Of a stretch of DNA of 64,000 nucleotides, positions 27,440 through 37,591 are shown in pieces (the first letter of the stretch is position 1; every line of letters begins with the position of its first letter). The stretch is from Thermosediminibacter litoriperuensis (lineage in GTDB: Bacteria; Bacillota; Thermosediminibacteria; Thermosediminibacterales; Thermosediminibacteraceae), in the NCBI RefSeq assembly GCF_008124715.1, contig NZ_VNHO01000001.1:1-64000 (forward strand), given 5' to 3'. The notes under the pieces were generated by a model. That model did not search any database. It was not told where the DNA came from and saw only the letters and a list, made by a program, of their open reading frames with translations. Both the position numbers and the translations under genes were made by a program.

Positions 27440-28765
27440 TTACTTAGTATTATTATTATACGCGCTCCTGTCATTTTCCTTCATTACAACCAAATTTTCA
27501 TTAAAAATTCCCGAAAGCCCCAGTCGATTTACCTTTTCCCTAATCGCCTCTTCTTCCGTAAGATAAAGTCCAAGTTTTTTCATTCTTTCATAATACGAAG
27601 CTCCGGCAAAGGTATAGCGCTTGTAAAGCCCTTCGGACGTTTTCAATTCTTCGTTGACGAAGGCTATCATATCGCCTATGGATAGCTCTCTGGGCAGTTT
27701 TAAAAGCTCCATCTTTAGCGCCCTTCGCGCTGCATTATGGCCTGCAAGAATTCCCGTGCATATGGCTTCGGTGTGACCTACAATCGGGCCGGATTTCTCA
27801 CCGGCGCAAAACAGGTTTTCTACCCCCTCAACTCTCATGAAATCGTCCCGGGGCGCCATCGACATGTACCGTATCGAGTTGCCCTTGCTGGCGGCATAAG
27901 GATCCTCGAAGCGGGCATTTTCAAAACCCTTTATTTTTCGAAGTTCCTCTAAACTGAAAAACGGTGTCATGAGCTTCGCATGCCCAGTATCCAGTAAAAC
28001 GATGCTCCTCGCGTAATCTTCCAGAGCGTACTGCTGGCAAACTTTGAGTGATAGCTTTTCCTTATGAACGAATTTATCGGGCAGTTCTATTACAACTACC
28101 CCTTTTTCCTCGAGTTCCCTTCTTATATCGTCCCCGAGAGAGTCTTTGTTCAATTTACAAGAACCGCTCATGGCTCCATATAGTTCCGGGGATCTTTTGC
28201 CAACCAGGTCTTCAGCACCCGCCTTTTTGCTGATACTTACCCTGGGCCCGAATGCCGGACATCTCTGTACGCACATGCAGCAACCATGCCCGTACTTAAG
28301 GCAGTTTCCTACGGGCCCCGATGATCCGGTGGTCTCCACGAACACATCGCCCTCGACCACTTCATCGTCCGACAGGATAACGCCGGTTATAGTTCTCCCT
28401 TTCATCCTGACATCAACGGCTCGAGACATGAATCGTATTTCGATCCCTAGACCCAACAGAAAATCCCTAACCCGGGCCTCTATTTTTGTTACATCGTAAA
28501 GGGTTGCGTGGGAATGACCGGGAAAATTCACATTGCTATGCCTTGCGGTAGCATCGGCGATTTCGAACAATTCACCGGCACCAAGCGCAATCGCCTCCTC
28601 GGCCGCTGTGTACCGGCCGTTGTTCCTCATTATACCTCCCACCAGTCCGCAACCCAGAAGCATATCCGTTTTTTCCAGTATTACTACATCGGCTCCTGCT
28701 TTTTTGGCTGCAAGAGCCGCACCGCAACCAGCCCAGCCTCCACCTATTATTATTACCTTAGGCAT
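27440..28765 (-). CDS. FAD-dependent oxidoreductase with cysteine motif (paralog 1)
   Basis: 441 residues from ATG 28765 (GGGGG nine bases upstream, inside the previous gene). N-terminal dinucleotide fold VIIIGGGWAGCGAALAAKKAG, then a loop YGHGCCMCVQRCPAFG with four cysteines (about residues 176-184) that could bind an Fe-S centre or be redox-active, and the C-terminal FAD motif NLFCAGEKSGPIVGHTEA. The protein is closely similar along its whole length to the product at 33884-35167. It overlaps by eight bases the PyrK-like gene, a likely electron partner. The substrate is unknown; amine or amino-acid oxidation is the inference. Confidence 0.8.
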   Translation of the reverse strand: MPKVIIIGGGWAGCGAALAAKKAGADVVILEKTDMLLGCGLVGGIMRNNGRYTAAEEAIALGAGELFEIADATARHSNVNFPGHSHATLYDVTKIEARVRDFLLGLGIEIRFMSRAVDVRMKGRTITGVILSDDEVVEGDVFVETTGSSGPVGNCLKYGHGCCMCVQRCPAFGPRVSISKKAGAEDLVGKRSPELYGAMSGSCKLNKDSLGDDIRRELEEKGVVVIELPDKFVHKEKLSLKVCQQYALEDYARSIVLLDTGHAKLMTPFFSLEELRKIKGFENARFEDPYAASKGNSIRYMSMAPRDDFMRVEGVENLFCAGEKSGPIVGHTEAICTGILAGHNAARRALKMELLKLPRELSIGDMIAFVNEELKTSEGLYKRYTFAGASYYERMKKLGLYLTEEEAIREKVNRLGLSGIFNENLVVMKENDRSAYNNNTK

Positions 28766-29723
28766 GTGCATTGACCCCCATTACATTTTTGCTTTCGGTT
28801 TGCACCTTACAGAGTTGAAGTCTTTTGCCTCCAACCAGCGTCTCACAGCTGCCGCAAACTCCCTCACCGCAGCACATCTGCGCATTGTTGGAAACAGCAA
28901 GAGCTATTTTTCGCCCGCTCTGCTCCACCAATGCTTTTACCAGATTATGCTGGGTTTCCGAACCACCGCTGTAAACCACTTCATAACCGCCGTTTTCGAT
29001 TAATTCCCGGAGGTAGTTTTCATAGGGAGAACCTGAAAAATCGAAAACTTGCACTCTTACGCCCAGGGATTCCAGGAGTTCCCTGGCTGGGTTGCAGTTT
29101 ATGACTCCCGGATCGAGAAATGCCGTTATATCATTCCCGCCTCTAACGAGGGTCTTCGCGACCAGCACCAGGGATGCCTGACCTATACCCCTCCCGATCA
29201 GCAGACACTTTTTATTAACGCTGGATTTTATATGCTTTAACCCGAAAATGCCGTTGTAGTAAGGGCCTCTTAACAGCAGCGTTCTGTCTTCCCGAGCCAG
29301 ACTTCTCGTCTTGGGACCTATTATCTGCATGGCGAAGGTTAAGGTATTTTTGTCCTCATTCGTATCCATCACACAGAGCGGAAACTCAAAATAGGAGGGG
29401 CTGTTTACTGCCCTTAAGAACACGTATGTCCCGGGCTGACTGTATTCCCTACTTAAAGCCGCCAAAGGAAGGAGGACTTTAAATACTATAAGGTTATTCG
29501 TAACGGTCTTTTTTTCGATTATCTTTACCCCCAGAGTTCTCCGGGGTTCTTTTTTTCTCCTGCCGTTCCATATGAATTCCTGGTAAACGCAAAATCCCTG
29601 CCAACGGCAATCACAGGTCTCCTTACCCTGTAGTATAGAGCAGGCAATACAGCTGTTGGTCTCCGCCAGGTAGCAAGGGCAATAAGGTGATACCGCATCT
29701 ATGCACTGGTAATTGAGAGCCAT
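28758..29723 (-). CDS. PyrK-like FAD/[2Fe-2S] electron-transfer protein
   Basis: 321 residues from ATG 29723, which has a perfect AAGGAGG eight bases upstream; a longer frame has none. Residues 1-50 are cysteine-rich (CPCYLAETNSCIACS and CDCRWQGFC), an unusual added module. Next comes a ferredoxin-reductase fold with an FAD part (PGTYVFLRAVN) and a nucleotide part (CLLIGRGIGQASLVLVAKTL). The C-terminus has the PyrK [2Fe-2S] ligands (CCGEGVCGSCET, then LCK). It would pass electrons between NAD(P)H or ferredoxin and the FAD protein encoded next. Not PyrK itself, since no pyrD is nearby. Confidence 0.8.
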   Translation of the reverse strand: MALNYQCIDAVSPYCPCYLAETNSCIACSILQGKETCDCRWQGFCVYQEFIWNGRRKKEPRRTLGVKIIEKKTVTNNLIVFKVLLPLAALSREYSQPGTYVFLRAVNSPSYFEFPLCVMDTNEDKNTLTFAMQIIGPKTRSLAREDRTLLLRGPYYNGIFGLKHIKSSVNKKCLLIGRGIGQASLVLVAKTLVRGGNDITAFLDPGVINCNPARELLESLGVRVQVFDFSGSPYENYLRELIENGGYEVVYSGGSETQHNLVKALVEQSGRKIALAVSNNAQMCCGEGVCGSCETLVGGKRLQLCKVQTESKNVMGVNAHA

Positions 29724-29792
29724 CGAGAACCCTCCTTCGAAAAATAAACGTAACATTATTAGTACATTATGAATTTTGCAGCCGGTTGGTGA

Positions 29793-29828
29793 TAAAAAAA
29801 GCCGAATTCCAGCGAATTCGGCTTTTTT
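29793..29828. terminator. Terminator after the mutase transcription unit
   Basis: GCCGAATTC, four-base loop, GAATTCGGC, with A-run on one side and T-run on the other, so it can act on both strands. It overlaps the stop of the P-loop gene at 29827 and parts the mutase genes from the PyrK-like gene. Confidence 0.88.
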
Positions 29829-30909
29829 AACCTTTTTTATGAAATCCCAGTACTTTTAACAACTCCGCAGGGCCGTCCTTTAATACATTAACCACCGGCA
29901 GCGATACCGCTTTTTTTATTTCTTCCCTCAGGAATTTCTCGTCGACGTACCCTGGTTCATATACACCGGTTTCAAACCTGTACCGGGGATAAAAGGGATT
30001 TATGGTCACCGCCACCACCGGCACCTCTTTCAACACCTCAATTCTACCTCCAAAAGACTCTATTCTCTTTGTCGTATTCATCACATCACCCGGATACCCG
30101 CCGATGATAAGTTTTATGGGATCGCTCAGAAGGATGGTCAAACCCTTCAAACGGTTTTTAAAAATATCTACCAGCCTGTTTAACACCGGTTGGGAAACAG
30201 CCGCGGGTATAAATATCGCACAGGCCTTTTCGGTCAAAACTGCCTTTAAAGCGCCAATTATATCTTCGTGGATCAGGGCTGGATAGCGGATGGCTTCGAC
30301 GGTGCCGTCCCGGTTGACCACAGATATCGTTTTAAAACCCCCGAGGATTTGTTTATAAATTTTGCCGGCTTCGGGCAGTTTGAAAATACTGCAAATCTGT
30401 CCGGTCTCCTCAGCCAACTCAATGACATCCGGGTTTCTGGCAGCACCCGTAGCCAATATTATACCTTCCGTTTCAATCATCGGCGCTATTCTGTTTAACG
30501 CTCCATCAACCAGGATGATGTCGCAACCCGCTTTTTCCGTCATTCTATCAAGAACTCTTCTAAGTTCCCGGCTCTTGTTAGGACCTGCAACAACCGCGAG
30601 GCCATCACTCTTCACCGCAGCGATCGAAATTCTGCCCAGAGGTGTCATAATATCTGTCGTCTCCAGAATTTCCAGTTCGGCGCTGCCTGCCCTGAGGCAG
30701 GCAGCCGCTGTAGCCACCACACTGCCCCTTTTTAAAAAAAGGCGGGGTTTTAAAAGCCCCGTTACATTATCTATTTCCTCACCGTCATATCCTATACTGG
30801 TCAAACCTACGACATTATTATTTAAGTATGAAAAACCTTCGAGTAGTGCAGATATCGTAGTGGTTTTACCGGTATTTTTTGCGGTACCGGCTACGCCTAT
30901 TATTCGCAC
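29827..30909 (-). CDS. P-loop protein, possible B12-aminomutase reactivase (KamB-like)
   Basis: 360 residues from GTG 30909 (GGAGG eight bases upstream). Walker A GTAKNTGKTTT is at residues 8-18; a probable Walker B is CDIILVDGALNR near 130. The C-terminal half (ILLSDPIKLIIGGYPGD, VAVTINPFYPRYRFETG) resembles nothing I can name with confidence. Lysine 5,6-aminomutase operons encode accessory proteins (KamB, KamC) that restore inactivated enzyme, and this protein could be of the KamB type. Position 18 bases after the mutase gene supports a link. No MutS-like KamC is seen. Confidence 0.6.
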   Translation of the reverse strand: MRIIGVAGTAKNTGKTTTISALLEGFSYLNNNVVGLTSIGYDGEEIDNVTGLLKPRLFLKRGSVVATAAACLRAGSAELEILETTDIMTPLGRISIAAVKSDGLAVVAGPNKSRELRRVLDRMTEKAGCDIILVDGALNRIAPMIETEGIILATGAARNPDVIELAEETGQICSIFKLPEAGKIYKQILGGFKTISVVNRDGTVEAIRYPALIHEDIIGALKAVLTEKACAIFIPAAVSQPVLNRLVDIFKNRLKGLTILLSDPIKLIIGGYPGDVMNTTKRIESFGGRIEVLKEVPVVAVTINPFYPRYRFETGVYEPGYVDEKFLREEIKKAVSLPVVNVLKDGPAELLKVLGFHKKG

Positions 30910-30927: not shown

Positions 30928-32745
30928 TTATAAACTTGTAACTGTGCCCCTGCCGGCTCTTCCCGGGTAAGCCCCTTCCCCGCGGCTTCCCAACAATCCC
31001 CTGTAGAGGGCGTCGACAAAATTGCCGTTCTTTGCTACGGAATCCAGGGTACTTTCTATACCTTCAACAATTTGCGAAGCCCAGATTTCCGAGTTCCGTG
31101 TCGGAGTTATTTCGGCATGCCCGAAAAATCTAAAAGCCGACTGTGTGGCCCTGAGCGTGTCAATTCTAGCAGCTACCGATATGGGGCCGCCGGAGTAGGC
31201 TTCATCAGCGGAAGCGATGGAAATTCCGTCCACGCCCAGCACTGAAGCGAGGGATGCGTGCAGGGCGGTGCTTAGTGATGACTGAACTCTGTCTTCGGTC
31301 TGGGTTAAAAATCCGATAGGTGCACCGCACCAGATCGGGGCGTTCAATATGCTCCTCAGAGCCGAGATCTTGGCCGCGTTAAAATCCACGTAGTTGTCCC
31401 TCATTTGGCCGCTGATCATCACTTCAGGTGAGTAACAGAACAAAGGCTGGAGAATCGGCTTTGCACCCAGCCTAAGCCCCAGCATGGTCACAATTAACAT
31501 GCCCGCAAAGGCTTTATGGGCGGGGACTCCGCAGAGCTCTTCATTCGTCACCACATCGAAGGGCATGTCAAATCTGGCAGCGTATTTTATGGCAGCTACC
31601 GCATCCACAGTAAGCCTTTCGGGATCCGTTCCCCCTCCTAGCGAACCGTAGGCTATATTTATTTTCGTAAGGTCTGCTCCAACCTTTCCCGCAAGAAGCA
31701 CCGTTTCCGGAGTGTTGAGACCCCTGTGGGCTCTAACCTGCCAAAGAGTCGAGGGCATCAATGCATCCTTTATTATCCGCAGGTTTTCATATGTTATGAC
31801 AGAACCGTCTTCTTCGTGGGTGATATAGCCCTCGAAAAAGCCCTCGGTTCTTGCTCCCCAGGAGGGATCAAAGTGCACAACTCCGTCTGCACCCCACGCT
31901 TCGCAGGTCTTAATATGGGCTATGTCCATAAACGGACACCCGGTCCCATACTGGATAAAAACCATGGGATTTTTATCGGCATGCTGCAATTTCAGAGGAT
32001 TGATCCTGAGCTTCAATTTTTCCAGGTAAGTTTCCAGTGCTTTCAATTCTTCAGCGGTCAGATGCCTTGTCTTTTCCTTCAGAGCGCCGCTATCGTAATA
32101 TACTTTAACGACATTGTCGCACAACCTTGCGTATTCCTTTTTAAGTTTTAACACTTCAGTTTCATCGGTGCTCTCCAGCATCCTTTCTCTTATTTTAGCT
32201 CTTTCTACCCCGGGGGTAGTCTTATTTTTCACGTAATCAATTATCCCGTCGACAATAGCGTTCAATAGATTTTCTATCCTCTTGTTTTTAAATGTATAAT
32301 CGTATTTTTCCGTCATATCCTTTTTAAATTTGCTTCTACTTACATCTTCCTTTACGTACTCCCTGCCCTCCACAAACGCCACGGCTTCTTCAACAGTAGT
32401 TCCCGGTCCAAATCCGGCGTCAAATCCGAGTTCAGCAGCCAGTTCCGGCCTTATGGCCATCCCGCCTATGCCTATCCTGACCCTTTCTCTTATTCCGGAC
32501 GCCTCGGCCAGATCGATAAAACTTCCCAGGATTTCGGCCACCCTATAACCCAGGGTTCGACTAATAAGGATGACATCAACATCATTGTCCATAGCGGTCT
32601 TAATTATCTCTTCAGGAGAATAGTCGGGGGGAAGCAGTATCGTATCGTGTTCCGCCTGATCGAGCCCCCTTTTTATCATTTTGAGGCCGATGTCGTGAAC
32701 CGGGTCCAGAGGGGCAAGGAGCACCTTTTTCTTTTGAACAGTCAC
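30928..32745 (-). CDS. B12-dependent aminomutase-like protein, cobalamin domain first
   Basis: 605 residues from GTG 32745 (GGGGGG upstream). Residues 6-130 are a cobalamin-binding Rossmann domain: H17 in DPVHDIG as lower axial ligand, GIGGMAIRP (92-100) and FDAGFGPGT (108-116), which align with the end of OraE/KamE. Residues 135-250 are helical. Residues 255-600 form a barrel like KamD/OraE: CEAWGADGVVHFDP, RTEGFFEGYITHE, AYGSLGGGTDPER and the repeated Gly/Ala strands. In OraE the B12 domain is at the C-terminus, so the order here is swapped. The PLP-holding lysine is not clear (K25 is a candidate). Substrate unknown; carbon-skeleton mutases are an alternative. Confidence 0.75.
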   Translation of the reverse strand: MTVQKKKVLLAPLDPVHDIGLKMIKRGLDQAEHDTILLPPDYSPEEIIKTAMDNDVDVILISRTLGYRVAEILGSFIDLAEASGIRERVRIGIGGMAIRPELAAELGFDAGFGPGTTVEEAVAFVEGREYVKEDVSRSKFKKDMTEKYDYTFKNKRIENLLNAIVDGIIDYVKNKTTPGVERAKIRERMLESTDETEVLKLKKEYARLCDNVVKVYYDSGALKEKTRHLTAEELKALETYLEKLKLRINPLKLQHADKNPMVFIQYGTGCPFMDIAHIKTCEAWGADGVVHFDPSWGARTEGFFEGYITHEEDGSVITYENLRIIKDALMPSTLWQVRAHRGLNTPETVLLAGKVGADLTKINIAYGSLGGGTDPERLTVDAVAAIKYAARFDMPFDVVTNEELCGVPAHKAFAGMLIVTMLGLRLGAKPILQPLFCYSPEVMISGQMRDNYVDFNAAKISALRSILNAPIWCGAPIGFLTQTEDRVQSSLSTALHASLASVLGVDGISIASADEAYSGGPISVAARIDTLRATQSAFRFFGHAEITPTRNSEIWASQIVEGIESTLDSVAKNGNFVDALYRGLLGSRGEGAYPGRAGRGTVTSL

Positions 32746-32757
32746 ACTAGACCCCCC

Positions 32758-32991
32758 TTAATTGTCCTTTTTAAAAAGCCAGGCGTAACTATCCCCGGGT
32801 TTATATATATATCCTCTGATCCTGACCCTAGCACCCGGGCCCTGATGCTGTATGAAGACTATGCTTGCATCTTTAAATCCCAGCTCGTTCATCAGCTGAA
32901 GAGAGAGTCTCTTCCCTTCTTCTTCGTCATCGCAAACCAGAAAAGTCTCTATATCTACGGCATCCATTACTCTTTCAAGTGCTCCTGACAT
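32758..32991 (-). CDS. Small mutase partner resembling the KamE/OraE dimerisation domain, 77 aa
   Basis: 77 residues, ATG 32991 with AAGGAGG seven bases upstream. The pattern TFLVCDDEEEGKRLSLQLMN, LGFKDASIVFIQ, then GARVRIRGYIYKPGD follows the small domain that precedes the cobalamin domain in OraE and KamE (ARK-type helix, GLKDVEV-type strand, GTR-x-ELKG-x-V-strand). Here that domain is a separate gene 12 bases upstream of the mutase, so it is likely its small subunit. The resemblance is by eye. It is first in the unit just downstream of the CTCATC palindrome. Confidence 0.65.
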   Translation of the reverse strand: MSGALERVMDAVDIETFLVCDDEEEGKRLSLQLMNELGFKDASIVFIQHQGPGARVRIRGYIYKPGDSYAWLFKKDN

Positions 32992-33050: not shown

Positions 33051-33776
33051 TTAAATACCCGCACTTTCCCAGTATTTTTCCACATCGAAAACCAGATTCT
33101 CTATATGTTTGACCATAGCGGCTTCCGCCGCCTCCGGGTCCCTGGATGCGATGGATTCGAATATTTTTTCGTGGTCCAGCAGCACCTTGCTTTTAACCTT
33201 TTTCCTTATATACTCGAGTACGGGTGACAGCTGACCGTGCTGCCTTATGAGATCCAAGGCCGCATCAAGTACCCTGTTCCTGGCAGCCTGAGCTATCAGC
33301 TTGTGAAATTTCACGTCATCGTCGGCTATGGAAACACCCTCTTCCAAGTGTTTTTTCTGAGCTTCCAGGATTTCCTCCATTTCCTTTATCTCTTTTTGGG
33401 TGATGTACTGAGCGGCAAGTCTTGCCAACTGACCCTCTATTACTTTTCTGGCAACCAGCATGTCGAGCAATTCCTTCCTGCCGGTGACTTTAATAACATT
33501 TATAAGCTCGTTTCCGTAATGGTTGATCTTCTGCTCCTGCTCTAGTTCCCTTAGTTTTTCCATACCGTAGGGTGTCAGGATCCTGCCTTTAAAACCGACT
33601 TTTTCAGTGTAACCCTCGGCGTCCATTTCCCTCAGTATTCTGCCGGCTGTAGCTTCGCTGACCTCATAGCCCTGCAGCTTTAGATTCTCTCTCACGTAGC
33701 CGGAACCGATCGGCGCCTGTGAATCTGCTATTGCTTTGAGGATCAGATAAAACAAGTGTTTTTTTTCTGAAAACAT
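33051..33776 (-). CDS. Winged-helix/FCD transcription regulator
   Basis: 241 residues. Residues 1-75 are a winged helix of the NrpR/HTH_12 type (FYLILKAIADSQAPIGSGYV, SEATAGRILREMDAEGYTEKV) and not the usual GntR helix. Residues about 85-235 are an all-helical FCD ligand domain with the metal/effector residues D and H in DDDVKFHKLIAQAARNRVLD, H in LLDHEKIFESI and H in MVKHIENLVF. Such proteins respond to small carboxylates. A TATAAT box (33814-33809) lies upstream; the gene stands alone between the two halves of the B12 region, which it probably controls. Confidence 0.8.
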   Translation of the reverse strand: MFSEKKHLFYLILKAIADSQAPIGSGYVRENLKLQGYEVSEATAGRILREMDAEGYTEKVGFKGRILTPYGMEKLRELEQEQKINHYGNELINVIKVTGRKELLDMLVARKVIEGQLARLAAQYITQKEIKEMEEILEAQKKHLEEGVSIADDDVKFHKLIAQAARNRVLDAALDLIRQHGQLSPVLEYIRKKVKSKVLLDHEKIFESIASRDPEAAEAAMVKHIENLVFDVEKYWESAGI

Positions 33777-33883: not shown

Positions 33884-35167
33884 CTATATCACTTTCCGAT
33901 TGAAGAAATCGATCATACCGACTTTCCGAACGCGATTTCTGATTTCTTCTATATCGGTGGTATATAACCCCAGATGTTTCATTCTTTCGAAATAGACGGA
34001 ACCAGAGAAGGTGTATTTTTTGGAAATCCCTTCTTCAGTCTTCATCTGCTCGTTTACATAGGCAATAGCGTCTCCCACCGCCAGATCGGTTGGAATCTCC
34101 ACCAGGCTAACCCCCGCGGCATACCTTACTGCATTAGCCCCGGCCAGGGTTCCGGTGCAGATGGCTTCTGTATGCCCTACAAGCGGTCCCGCCTTTTCCC
34201 CTCCGCAAAAGAGGTTCTCAACCCCCAGGGTTTTGAGGTTGTTGTCCCTCGGAGACATTGCCATATACCTAATGGAATTGCCGATATTGCCTGCATATGG
34301 GTCCTCAAAACGGGCATTTTCAAATCCCGGTATCCTGCGCAACTGATCCAGAGGGAAATACGGCGCCATCAATTTGGCGTGCCCGGTATCCAGTAGTACC
34401 ACGTTCTCAATGAACTCCTTTAGAGCATACTGTTGGCAGGCTTTCTTCGTGAGTATATTTTCATCTTCTCTAACTTCTTCCGGGACAGGGATAACTGCCA
34501 CGCCGGTGGAGTTGAGCTTATCTACTATTTCCTGGGATAATGACTCCTTGAGCAATTTGCAGGAACCGCTCATGGCCCCGTAAGTCCCGTCGGCTTTTTT
34601 CGCCATCATTTCTTTTACGCCGGCCTTTGCGGCAATGCTAACTCGGCCGCCGTAACTGGGACACCTTATTATGCACATAGCGCACCCATTGCCGTATTTT
34701 GTGCAATTGCTCTGGGGTCCGGCAGTGCCGGTACATTCGACGAATACATCGCCATAGAACTTCTCGTCGTTATCGGTTATAACGGCCGTTATTCTGTTTC
34801 CTTCCATTTCAATATCCCTGACACGGCTTCGAGTGTGCACCTCGACTCCGGCCTCCGCCAGTATCCTCCTCACCGCCGGCTCTACTTTGGCTACGTCATA
34901 AAGGGTGGCATGCTTGTGACCGGGAAATTCCACGTTTTTATGCCTGGCTACCGCGTCTGTAACCTGGAATAGCTCTCCGGCCCCCATGGCAATCATTTCT
35001 TCCGCGGCCGTAAATCGGCCGTTGTTTCGCATGATACCGCCTACCAGGCCGGTTCCCAGCAGCATGTCCGTTCTTTCAAGCAGTACAACTTCCGCTCCGG
35101 CTTTTTTGGCGGCCAGAGCGGCGGCACACCCCGACCATCCACCGCCTACGACCACAACTTTAGGCAT
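33884..35167 (-). CDS. FAD-dependent oxidoreductase with cysteine motif (paralog 2)
   Basis: 427 residues from ATG 35167 (GGAGGG seven bases upstream; a GTG lying inside that site is less likely). VVVVGGGWSGCAAALAAKKAG binds FAD, GNGCAMCIIRCPSYGG (near residue 171) is the cysteine loop, and NLFCGGEKAGPLVGHTEA is the C-terminal FAD motif. It is a full-length paralog of the protein at 27440-28765; RNNGRFTAAEEMIAMGAGELF and MSGSCKLLKESLSQEI are shared stretches. It ends the first transcription unit, after the PLP enzyme. Perhaps the two form a heteromer or act on successive intermediates. Confidence 0.8.
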   Translation of the reverse strand: MPKVVVVGGGWSGCAAALAAKKAGAEVVLLERTDMLLGTGLVGGIMRNNGRFTAAEEMIAMGAGELFQVTDAVARHKNVEFPGHKHATLYDVAKVEPAVRRILAEAGVEVHTRSRVRDIEMEGNRITAVITDNDEKFYGDVFVECTGTAGPQSNCTKYGNGCAMCIIRCPSYGGRVSIAAKAGVKEMMAKKADGTYGAMSGSCKLLKESLSQEIVDKLNSTGVAVIPVPEEVREDENILTKKACQQYALKEFIENVVLLDTGHAKLMAPYFPLDQLRRIPGFENARFEDPYAGNIGNSIRYMAMSPRDNNLKTLGVENLFCGGEKAGPLVGHTEAICTGTLAGANAVRYAAGVSLVEIPTDLAVGDAIAYVNEQMKTEEGISKKYTFSGSVYFERMKHLGLYTTDIEEIRNRVRKVGMIDFFNRKVI

Positions 35168-35193
35168 TTTATTACCCTCCACTAAAACTGATA

Positions 35194-36660
35194 TTAGTCA
35201 AGATACCCGCTGTGCTTGGCAACAATTTCCATTAACTTGATAAGAGCTCTTACTGCCCATCTCGCGCGATCTTCTATAATCTGCCCGTTTTCGTCCGTAG
35301 TCCCGAGCCCGGGGGAAATCATTATATTTGCATCGTAAGCCACTGTAGGAATAACCCCCATCTGGGCCACCCCGCTCTGGAATATGTTGGTCCCTGCGTA
35401 CATATCTTCTATCGAGAATATAGGGAGCCCTAGTTCGTCGCCGTTCCAGGTGTTTTCGTAGTTGACTTCCACCGCTCTGCTGTTGTAAGACTTAGTAATT
35501 ATCAATCCTTTCTTTATCTTCGGATGTATCTGTTCAAATTCTTCTTTTACAATGTTGTAAAGATCGTCTACCGGTTTTGTGAGTTCTTCGGGATTTTCTC
35601 TGAGCTCCTTTAAAGCCGCGATGACCCCCAGTAGAGCTTCCTTGCCCGGATCGTTGGTCACGTATGCTGCTTTCCCATAAGACGCCGTCGTACCGTACCT
35701 GTCTCCGTGGTAACCCAGTGCCCTCCTTATATGGACCATATATTCTTCTTTTCCGACGATGAGACCTGCCGTCGTCGATTCGCTGGCTTTATCAAGGCTG
35801 TAAATAATGACGTCCGCCCCGCTCTTTCTGATGTCGTGGCCGATGAAGGGCACTCCCCAGGCATTGTCCAGCACGTAGGGTACGTCAAATTCATGGGCAA
35901 TTTCCGCCAGCCTCTTCTGGAGCACCGGTGTTCCTTCCCCATCCTTAACGCCGTAACCGTAACCCGGAGTGTCGTAAGCTAGAGAAGTTATACCGGCGAA
36001 CATGGATGCTTCTCTTTCAGCCGCAACCCTAATTTTTTTCGCTGAAGCTTCAGGGTCTACTTTGGTCAGGAGTATTACCGGAAAATATTTAATTCCGTGC
36101 ACCGAATAATCTGCACCCACTAGAGGTACTATATGGGTACTCAAGTTGTTTTGCCTTTTCCCGTAAAAGCCCAGCTCTCCAGCGGTACATCCGCGATCGG
36201 ACAGAATATCCTTGAACCTCGGAGGGAACGGCCTTCCGTATCCACCGTGGTGATGCAGATGCTTTTCATAGGGTATGATGTACCTGCTAAGGTAGTTATC
36301 TCCCCTGCCCTGCATCGGTGGGGTAAAAAGCACATCAAAGGTCACCCACAGGCCCGCCTCACAGGTGTTGATAGGCGCCGCATCGTATTCATCACCGTAT
36401 ACGTCCTTTACGATAGCCCTGATTTCGTCCACCAACTTCGCCAGGGGAATAACCTCGGTACTTCCCTTATCAACCGCTTCTCTGACTTTTTTTGTAAGCG
36501 GCGAAGGACAGCCCGATATCGCTCCTGTCAGTCCGAATTTTCCTCTAATCTCCGGGGGTATGCCGATTTCATCGGCAGCTTTCCTGGCTTCCGCATAGAT
36601 GTTTGCGATGTTGGCCTGAAGGTGTCTGTACATCTCGAATTTCTTTTTAAATTTCGGCAT
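35194..36660 (-). CDS. PLP-dependent enzyme, aminotransferase/lyase fold type I
   Basis: 488 residues; AGGAGGT precedes ATG 36660. PLP residues are visible: D265 in VPYVLDNAWGVPF and the Schiff-base lysine K291 in IIYSLDKASES. A His-rich stretch (EKHLHHHGGYGRPFPPRF) and SDRGCTAGELGFYGKRQNNLS are conspicuous. The arrangement resembles large fold type I lyases, tyrosine decarboxylase-like and SepCysS-like enzymes, but I cannot assign one. A beta- or gamma-elimination would make an enamine, fitting the RidA domain encoded 22 bases upstream. Substrate unknown. Confidence 0.7.
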   Translation of the reverse strand: MPKFKKKFEMYRHLQANIANIYAEARKAADEIGIPPEIRGKFGLTGAISGCPSPLTKKVREAVDKGSTEVIPLAKLVDEIRAIVKDVYGDEYDAAPINTCEAGLWVTFDVLFTPPMQGRGDNYLSRYIIPYEKHLHHHGGYGRPFPPRFKDILSDRGCTAGELGFYGKRQNNLSTHIVPLVGADYSVHGIKYFPVILLTKVDPEASAKKIRVAAEREASMFAGITSLAYDTPGYGYGVKDGEGTPVLQKRLAEIAHEFDVPYVLDNAWGVPFIGHDIRKSGADVIIYSLDKASESTTAGLIVGKEEYMVHIRRALGYHGDRYGTTASYGKAAYVTNDPGKEALLGVIAALKELRENPEELTKPVDDLYNIVKEEFEQIHPKIKKGLIITKSYNSRAVEVNYENTWNGDELGLPIFSIEDMYAGTNIFQSGVAQMGVIPTVAYDANIMISPGLGTTDENGQIIEDRARWAVRALIKLMEIVAKHSGYLD

Positions 36661-36682: not shown

Positions 36683-37591
36683 TTATTTAAGCTTTACAAT
36701 CATCTCAATTTCACAGGGGGCATCCATCGGCAGCTCGTTAACCCCCACTGCCGAACGTGCATGGGCTCCGGCCTCTCCGAATATTTGATCCAGCAGTTCC
36801 GAGGCACCGTTTACTACCTTTGGCTGCTGGTTGAAACCCTCGGCGCTGTTTACAAAGCCTACTACTTTTACTATTTTCTCTACATTATCGAGACTTCCCG
36901 CCAAGGCCTTAACAATGCTGAGGCAGTTCAGAGCGCATATCCTTGCAGCTTCATACGCCTCTTCCACAGAAATATCTCTGCCTACCTTCCCCTTATACTT
37001 TAATTCTCCATTTACAAAAGGTATCTGTCCGGCAGTGTAAATGTATTTATCTACCAGAACTCCCGGGACGTAAGCAGCGACAGGTTTAGGCGGCTCCGGC
37101 AGTACGATGCCCAATTCCTGCATTCTTTTTTCGAGAGACATAGCGCACCTCCTTTCCGTTGCTTGTTCCCCGATGGTAACTTCTGCATCCAGTTCAAGCC
37201 CCATCTCATTGCCTGAAACCAGATAGGGGGCTTTTACCACAATGTTATAATGGTTTGGCATATGTGTCTCGTCGTAACCCGCTATACTGCCTATAACCCT
37301 GCCGTTGATTTTTACTACATCGCCTATGACTACAACAGCGCTGTTTTTAACTGCAAAAAATCCTACATAGGCAATTCTGTTTACAGTGTCTCCAGGACCC
37401 TTTGCCTCATCGGTAACGATCAGTTCGTGCACCTCGCCAGCCTTCAGGCACCTTGAGGGCTGGACGATTAGGTTCAAACCTCTTGCCTCGTATTTTCCAT
37501 CCAAGACTACTACCAGGCTGCCTTTCAAAGTTTTTTTTCGTACGTATGGATTGGTCGTTCTAAACATACCGGTTTTGTATGGATCTGCCAT
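36683..37591 (-). CDS. DUF6917-like domain fused to RidA enamine/imine deaminase
   Basis: 302 residues. Residues 1-150 are a strand-rich domain (GSLVVVLDGKYEARGLNLIVQ, VNRIAYVGFFAVKNSAVVVIGDVV) resembling DUF6917. Residues 151-302 are RidA/YjgF: VDKYIYTAGQIPFVNGEL, AARICALNCLSIVKAL, and the carboxylate-binding Arg279 in GAHARSAVGVNELP. RidA hydrolyses reactive enamines/imines left by PLP enzymes, and the PLP enzyme gene follows. At the junction is ATG 37141 with a perfect AAAGGAGGTG seven bases upstream, so RidA may also be made separately. Start ATG 37591. Confidence 0.8.
   Translation of the reverse strand: MADPYKTGMFRTTNPYVRKKTLKGSLVVVLDGKYEARGLNLIVQPSRCLKAGEVHELIVTDEAKGPGDTVNRIAYVGFFAVKNSAVVVIGDVVKINGRVIGSIAGYDETHMPNHYNIVVKAPYLVSGNEMGLELDAEVTIGEQATERRCAMSLEKRMQELGIVLPEPPKPVAAYVPGVLVDKYIYTAGQIPFVNGELKYKGKVGRDISVEEAYEAARICALNCLSIVKALAGSLDNVEKIVKVVGFVNSAEGFNQQPKVVNGASELLDQIFGEAGAHARSAVGVNELPMDAPCEIEMIVKLK
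37139..37156 (-). promoter_or_regulatory. Internal ribosome binding site and ATG for RidA
   Basis: Minus-strand AAAGGAGGTGCGCTATG: a near-perfect Shine-Dalgarno sequence and in-frame ATG at the domain junction of the 302-residue frame, with no stop codon before it. Confidence 0.65.

Follow-up and report, generated by a model that had tools for sequence, protein, structure and literature searches.

A two-gene locus of Thermosediminibacter litoriperuensis that appears to form a third branch of the B12 aminomutase superfamily, with permuted and re-cut domains

The closest described systems, lysine 5,6-aminomutase (KamDE) and D-ornithine 4,5-aminomutase (OraSE), are assembled from the same four modules: a helical segment (S, formed by OraS or the KamD N-terminus), a barrel, a dimerisation domain and a B12-binding domain. 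KamDE distributes these as S-barrel on one chain and dimer-B12 on the other, and OraSE as OraS on one chain and barrel-dimer-B12 on the other. In both of these characterised enzymes, PLP aids amino migration. The PLP contacts in these enzymes are a lysine of the B12 domain (KamE K144 or OraE K629) and the barrel residues R184, G187-S189, S238, Y263, R268 and N299 (PMC3958899). Two other B12-dependent enzymes serve for comparison. The fused isobutyryl-CoA mutase IcmF acts on CoA esters, and a GTPase chaperone domain separates its B12 domain from its barrel. Glutamate mutase, GlmES, is a PLP-free barrel mutase; its B12 domain resides on GlmS, a chain of its own, and it lacks the aminomutase dimer domain.

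We analysed a window of 64,000 nucleotides (contig NZ_VNHO01000001.1, positions 1 to 64,000) in which a gene for a 77-aa protein lies 12 bases upstream of a gene for a 605-aa protein on the same strand (Table 1). We conclude that this pair is a third, permuted and re-cut, and so far uncharacterised branch of the B12 aminomutase superfamily, and that it has likely lost PLP, although this loss is unproven. Our functional reading, to which we assign a probability of roughly 0.7, is that the pair forms an AdoCbl-dependent radical isomerase of this superfamily whose amino-acid-like substrate is unknown and which probably does not use PLP.

Table 1. Positions of the two genes, their modules and neighbouring genes in the window
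Feature	Positions	Strand	Support
GidA-like FAD oxidoreductase 2 (paralogue)	27440..28771	(-)	Pfam GIDA E 1.1e-39
PRK05802 FAD/NAD-binding electron-transfer protein	28758..29756	(-)	NF004470 383.6 bits, cut-off 313
KamB-type reactivase	29827..30909	(-)	NCBIfam NF052386 234.7 bits, cut-off 210
605-aa B12 / S-like / barrel protein	30928..32745	(-)	ORF list, Pfam, profiles, AF2 + Foldseek
KamD-like TIM barrel and C-terminal tail, aa 255-605, tail EGAYPGRAGRGTV	30931..31983	(-)	profile vs KamD E 2e-5; Foldseek 1xrs_A
OraS / KamD N-terminus-like segment, aa 154-191, YVKNKTTPGVERAKIRE	32173..32286	(-)	profile vs OraS E 1e-7
B12-binding domain, aa 1-126	32368..32745	(-)	Pfam E 3.5e-15; KamE profile E 5e-19
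Cobalt-ligand motif D14-P-V-H17-D-I-G20	32686..32706	(-)	
77-aa stand-alone dimerisation-domain subunit	32758..32991	(-)	Pfam, profiles, AF2 fold, gene adjacency
FCD-type transcription regulator of operon	33051..33776	(-)	Pfam FCD E 4.6e-25; in 36/46 loci
GidA-like FAD oxidoreductase 1	33884..35182	(-)	Pfam GIDA E 3.9e-36; homologue in 38/46 loci
488-aa PLP-type enzyme, distant SelA/DgaE/OAH-sulfhydrylase relative	35194..36660	(-)	in 42/46 loci
DUF6917 fused to Rid (YjgF) domain	36683..37591	(-)	Pfam E 9e-48 and 6e-25; DUF6917 in 40/46 loci

Four aminomutase modules in a circularly permuted order

Profile comparisons and the predicted fold show that the 77-aa protein is an OAM-type dimerisation domain on a separate chain. 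Its sole Pfam match, OAM_dimer (E 0.062), falls below the curated cut-off, and single-sequence and profile searches of the PDB returned only weak CheY matches; a fold search supersedes both. The AF2 model (pLDDT 89.8) has a beta-alpha-beta-beta topology, and KamE and OraE dimerisation domains take all six top places in a comparison with 350,542 PDB chains (best E 6.7e-3, probability 1.00; rmsd 1.2-2.0 in five and 5.8 in one). The family profile matches KamE at E 3e-7 with a score of 43.5, against a maximum of 20.3 for column-shuffled controls. The score against OraE is 27.5 (shuffled maximum 23.4), and that against GlmE, 25.3 (23.2), was treated as background. Residues R55, R57, R59, Y61, G66, Y69 and W71 are invariant. 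The alignments of the two families comprise 42 and 39 sequences.

The 605-aa protein begins with a KamE/OraE-type B12 domain bearing a cobalt-ligating histidine, an assignment that rests on profile and conservation. The Pfam B12-binding model covers residues 14-122, KamE matches this part of the structural model at 31-33% identity (Foldseek), and the motifs GIGGMAIRP and FDAGFGPGT are present. Residues D14, P15, V16, H17, D18 and G20 are kept in 42 of 42 sequences. The resulting motif, D-x-x-H-x-x-G, is one residue longer than the usual DxHxxG, which counts against our reading. In a tree of B12 domains the families separate, with deep joins that are weak and affected by long branches. Matches were also obtained between this domain and corrinoid proteins of methyl transfer, MtgC and MtbC among them, as would be expected if the 605-aa protein were a methyl-transfer protein fused to a barrel and not a radical enzyme. 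We regard this alternative as very unlikely, since KamE is the best B12 match and the S-like segment, the dimer protein and KamB all belong to AdoCbl aminomutase systems.

Only the general B12-binding domain passes curated Pfam or NCBIfam cut-offs in either protein; no KamDE or OraSE model does, and OAM_alpha (residues 137-203, E 0.011) and Lys-AminoMut_A (185-330, E 0.1) match the 605-aa protein below theirs. The remaining modules were compared by profile with alignments of KamD, KamE, OraE, OraS, GlmE and MCM drawn from related genomes, again with column-shuffled controls. The helical segment that follows the B12 domain is closest to OraS, scoring 47.1 over a 37-residue core (shuffled maximum 17.8), and also matches the KamD N-terminus (34.6; 16.1). 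The barrel profile scores 47.8 against KamD (22.5) and is borderline against OraE (33.9; 32.2). No signal above shuffles was obtained against GlmE (20.0; 26.3) or MCM (19.8; 28.5), and a grouping of the barrel with either is not supported.

The AF2 model of the 605-aa protein (pLDDT 89.1, pTM 0.85) gives a concordant ranking in Foldseek, with KamD at ranks 1-3 (1xrs_A, E 2.9e-17), OraE at 4-5, GlmE sixth and IcmF lower. Barrel identity to KamD is only ∼15%, a further point against our reading. In a barrel tree KamD groups with OraE (SH-aLRT 93), and a deep branch of its own is formed by the new family. However, the tree is saturated, its longest branches reaching 8-9 changes per column, and we claim the KamD and OraE pairing alone.

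Shuffled-control profiles and predicted folds together show that all four KamDE/OraSE modules are present across the pair. Their order, dimer on one chain and B12-S-barrel on the other, is seen in at least 44 of 46 loci and is a circular permutation of the KamDE and OraSE orders with a new gene cut. The reference orders were confirmed on relatives' sequences, where OraE 66-441 matches KamD 151-513 and OraE 501-731 matches KamE 8-247. An N-terminal B12 domain ahead of a barrel also occurs in IcmF, so that this order alone has precedent, but IcmF has neither an S segment nor a dimer protein.

It could be argued that the rearranged order is an assembly or frameshift artefact, or that the small gene is a lucky ORF. 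This possibility is all but excluded: the order recurs across 44 of the 46 distinct loci, among them loci of single-contig genomes, and nothing speaks in favour of an artefact.

How the permutation arose can only be inferred. One simple route would start from a KamE-KamD gene order, after which the B12 domain became joined to S-barrel and detached from the dimer domain. In none of the relatives' loci were the dimer and mutase genes seen fused, as they would be in an evolutionary intermediate. The dimer stop codon lies 22-83 bases before the DPVHD codons, and the two reading frames coincide in 10 of 47 cases, which is not above the chance expectation of one in three. Because the barrel tree is saturated, we cannot decide whether the KamDE-type or the new order is ancestral. 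A natural KamD-KamE fusion of 869 aa, with S-barrel-dimer-B12 in one chain, was observed separately (L069:3421-6030 (-)).

A first-pass annotation, made from the sequence alone, had placed a cobalamin domain (H17 and the two glycine-containing motifs) before a barrel, likened the upstream gene to the OraE/KamE dimerisation domain, stated the module orders of OraE and KamDE and inferred a circularly rearranged branch with its own subunit make-up. The observations held, and the inference is supported and refined by the added S-like segment, so that four modules are permuted. It had named as refuting outcomes an unrelated 77-aa protein and a barrel that groups with glutamate or methylmalonyl mutases, neither of which arose, and it had proposed the barrel tree described above.

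Distribution and the KamB-type reactivase

A GTDB scan identified three relatives, after which 101 close genomes and 399 genomes of the phylum were searched. The 605-aa family profile matched over its length in 39 of the 399 sampled phylum genomes, or about a tenth. We compared 46 loci after removing three duplicates; some are cut by contig ends, so all counts are lower bounds. The dimer gene is directly upstream of the 605-aa gene in at least 44, and a KamB-type reactivase gene is nearby in at least 43 and adjacent in at least 39. In T. litoriperuensis this gene lies 18 bases downstream of the 605-aa gene.

KamB is, by its NCBIfam family name, the reactivase of lysine 5,6-aminomutase. The T. 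litoriperuensis genome encodes no full-length KamD, and this KamB is its only one. Among 25 genomes that encode the new system, 17 have KamB but lack full-length KamD, the eight that encode KamD besides the new system each have an extra KamB, and two KamD-less genomes in which the new system occurs twice have two KamB genes each. In one genome without the mutase (G001), the dimer gene and KamB are missing as well. A second KamB-like stretch in another genome (G254) is not explained by the number of systems. This co-variation of KamB copy number with the new system is the strongest sign that the 605-aa protein makes radicals with AdoCbl, although the chemistry itself is inferred.

Two loci depart from the usual arrangement. 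In G002 the 605-aa gene is on another contig with genes for DUF6917 and the PLP-type enzyme, and the regulator, dimer gene and KamB remain together at the usual place, which speaks for our reading. A homologue with 50% identity (L058:8361-10280) has neither the dimer gene nor KamB nearby, and the dimer gene was not found in its genome, which is 78% complete. This homologue adjoins genes that, by eye, resemble 2-oxoacid and aldehyde ferredoxin oxidoreductases.

The new system thus resembles KamDE most closely, sharing four modules, two chains and a KamB-type reactivase, and finding in KamDE its best barrel, B12 and dimer fold matches. Unlike KamDE, it has no detectable KamC-like gene nearby; BLAST searches of the loci gave no match to KamC, a MutL-type reactivase or OraS. 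Both the missing KamC-like gene and the L058 locus weigh against our reading of the pair. With OraSE it shares the four modules, but in the one OraSE locus examined (L030) the neighbouring gene looks by eye like a MutL-type protein and not KamB.

The PLP site and the predicted chemistry

Most of the PLP-binding apparatus of KamDE and OraSE appears to be absent. The segment that holds KamE K144 or OraE K629 is missing (a gap of eight residues versus KamE and four versus OraE), and the position of the Schiff-base lysine, His+11, is L28 in 42 of 42 sequences. In the barrel, the phosphate ligand R184 corresponds to invariant D293 in both alignments used, S238 corresponds to R341 (hhalign), and the second phosphate ligand, R268, corresponds to G371/G372, with G or A at position 371. 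The sole contact that is clearly kept, as judged by alignment, is the stacking residue Y263, retained as Y366, while N299 and the G187-S189 loop align ambiguously.

We placed the KamD contacts by matching published residue numbers to the motifs RTTGQS, NYCSG, LYGILFR and NTGEDN, and compared them through alignments at ∼15% identity, not by superposition. Given this low identity and the presence of the invariant lysines K22 (B12 domain), K361 and K411 (barrel), the mapping is not firm. We favour the inference that PLP is not used, since the lysine segment is absent and the phosphate ligands are replaced, but this remains unproven. The first-pass annotation had noted that the PLP lysine is not clearly kept and that the enzyme may be PLP-independent; the former held, and the latter is favoured, with K361 and K411 still allowing a relocated site.

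A less likely but possible alternative is that the protein is a true PLP- and B12-dependent aminomutase whose Schiff-base lysine has moved to K361 (at the end of barrel strand 4), K411 or K22, with a rebuilt phosphate pocket. The conservation of all three lysines in 42 of 42 sequences is consistent with this and is a reservation about PLP independence in our preferred reading. The alignment of Y366 with Y263 and the retention of all four modules and KamB also favour a relocated site. Against it stand the absence of the KamE lysine segment and the replacement of R184 and R268 in both alignments. Also, MCM and GlmS have a lysine at the position equivalent to K22, so this residue need not concern PLP.

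A dense set of invariant polar residues lies near the ends of the barrel strands (Q265, C270, H291, R299, R338, H340, R341, K361, D374, R377, E403, K411, R486 and E515), and therefore an active site is under strong selection. With the PLP apparatus largely gone, a classical aminomutase may be a poorer guide to the chemistry than a carbon-skeleton mutase or an ammonia eliminase. In this more specific version of our explanation, the pair would be a B12-dependent eliminase or a glutamate-mutase-like carbon-skeleton mutase that uses aminomutase quaternary parts and shifts no amino group. The many invariant Arg and His residues at strand ends (R299, R338, H340, R341 and R377) support it, as does the rank of GlmE in the fold search, directly behind KamD and OraE. 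Moreover, the operon encodes a distant relative of the ammonia lyase DgaE plus a Rid protein. The methylaspartate pathway comprises a mutase followed by an ammonia lyase, and the operon make-up recalls that pairing. However, GlmES resembles the new system only as a PLP-free B12-dependent barrel mutase with a similar fold, and the barrel profile yields nothing above shuffles with GlmE or MCM. On balance we consider this version less likely than not.

The operon and a proposed mechanism

The 488-aa PLP-type enzyme matches NCBIfam TIGR01437 below its cut-off (E 2.4e-11) and PDB entry 8sf5 (E 3e-6). The DUF6917 and Rid domains, a single ORF here, are encoded by separate adjoining genes in many relatives. 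The PRK05802 FAD/NAD protein and its counterpart at L113:11660-12523 have Cys-rich N-termini, and in several loci a distant relative adjoins the dimer gene in the opposite orientation. A permease of ∼460 aa in the operons of relatives (such as L001:6253-7638 (+)) has no Pfam or NCBIfam match. We infer that the operon serves catabolism of an amino-acid-like compound through rearrangement, ammonia loss, enamine handling and oxidation, with a substrate that is not identified. OraSE is also encoded in the T. litoriperuensis genome, and the new system is therefore a separate pathway. The open-access literature searched yielded no paper that treats DUF6917 or describes a rearranged aminomutase, although absence there is not proof.

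According to our preferred reading, that of a radical isomerase, the 77-aa chain would provide the dimerisation domain, and the 605-aa chain the cobalamin domain (with His17 as lower ligand of cobalt), the helical segment that resembles OraS, and the substrate-binding barrel. By analogy with KamDE and OraSE, substrate binding would cause the cobalamin domain to swing onto the barrel, and Co-C homolysis would yield an adenosyl radical that drives a 1,2 rearrangement of the amino-acid-like substrate. KamB would exchange inactivated cobalamin, and the product would probably be handed to the PLP-type enzyme, the Rid protein and the FAD oxidoreductases. The assembly of the two chains, like the radical chemistry and the pathway, is inferred.

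A bolder reading, for which we see the case as evenly balanced, is that enzymes of the B12 aminomutase fold include a third class, represented here, which has abandoned PLP, permuted and re-cut its subunits, has its own reactivase, catalyses a reaction that no known B12 enzyme has been assigned and belongs to a conserved anaerobic pathway. A relative that has apparently lost the PLP site but retains all modules and the reactivase would separate the requirements of the fold from the contribution of PLP. Likewise, the rotated order tests whether a covalent tie between the dimerisation domain and the swinging cobalamin domain is needed. The operon occurs in roughly one in ten of the phylum genomes sampled and apparently encodes a pathway that has yet to be assigned.
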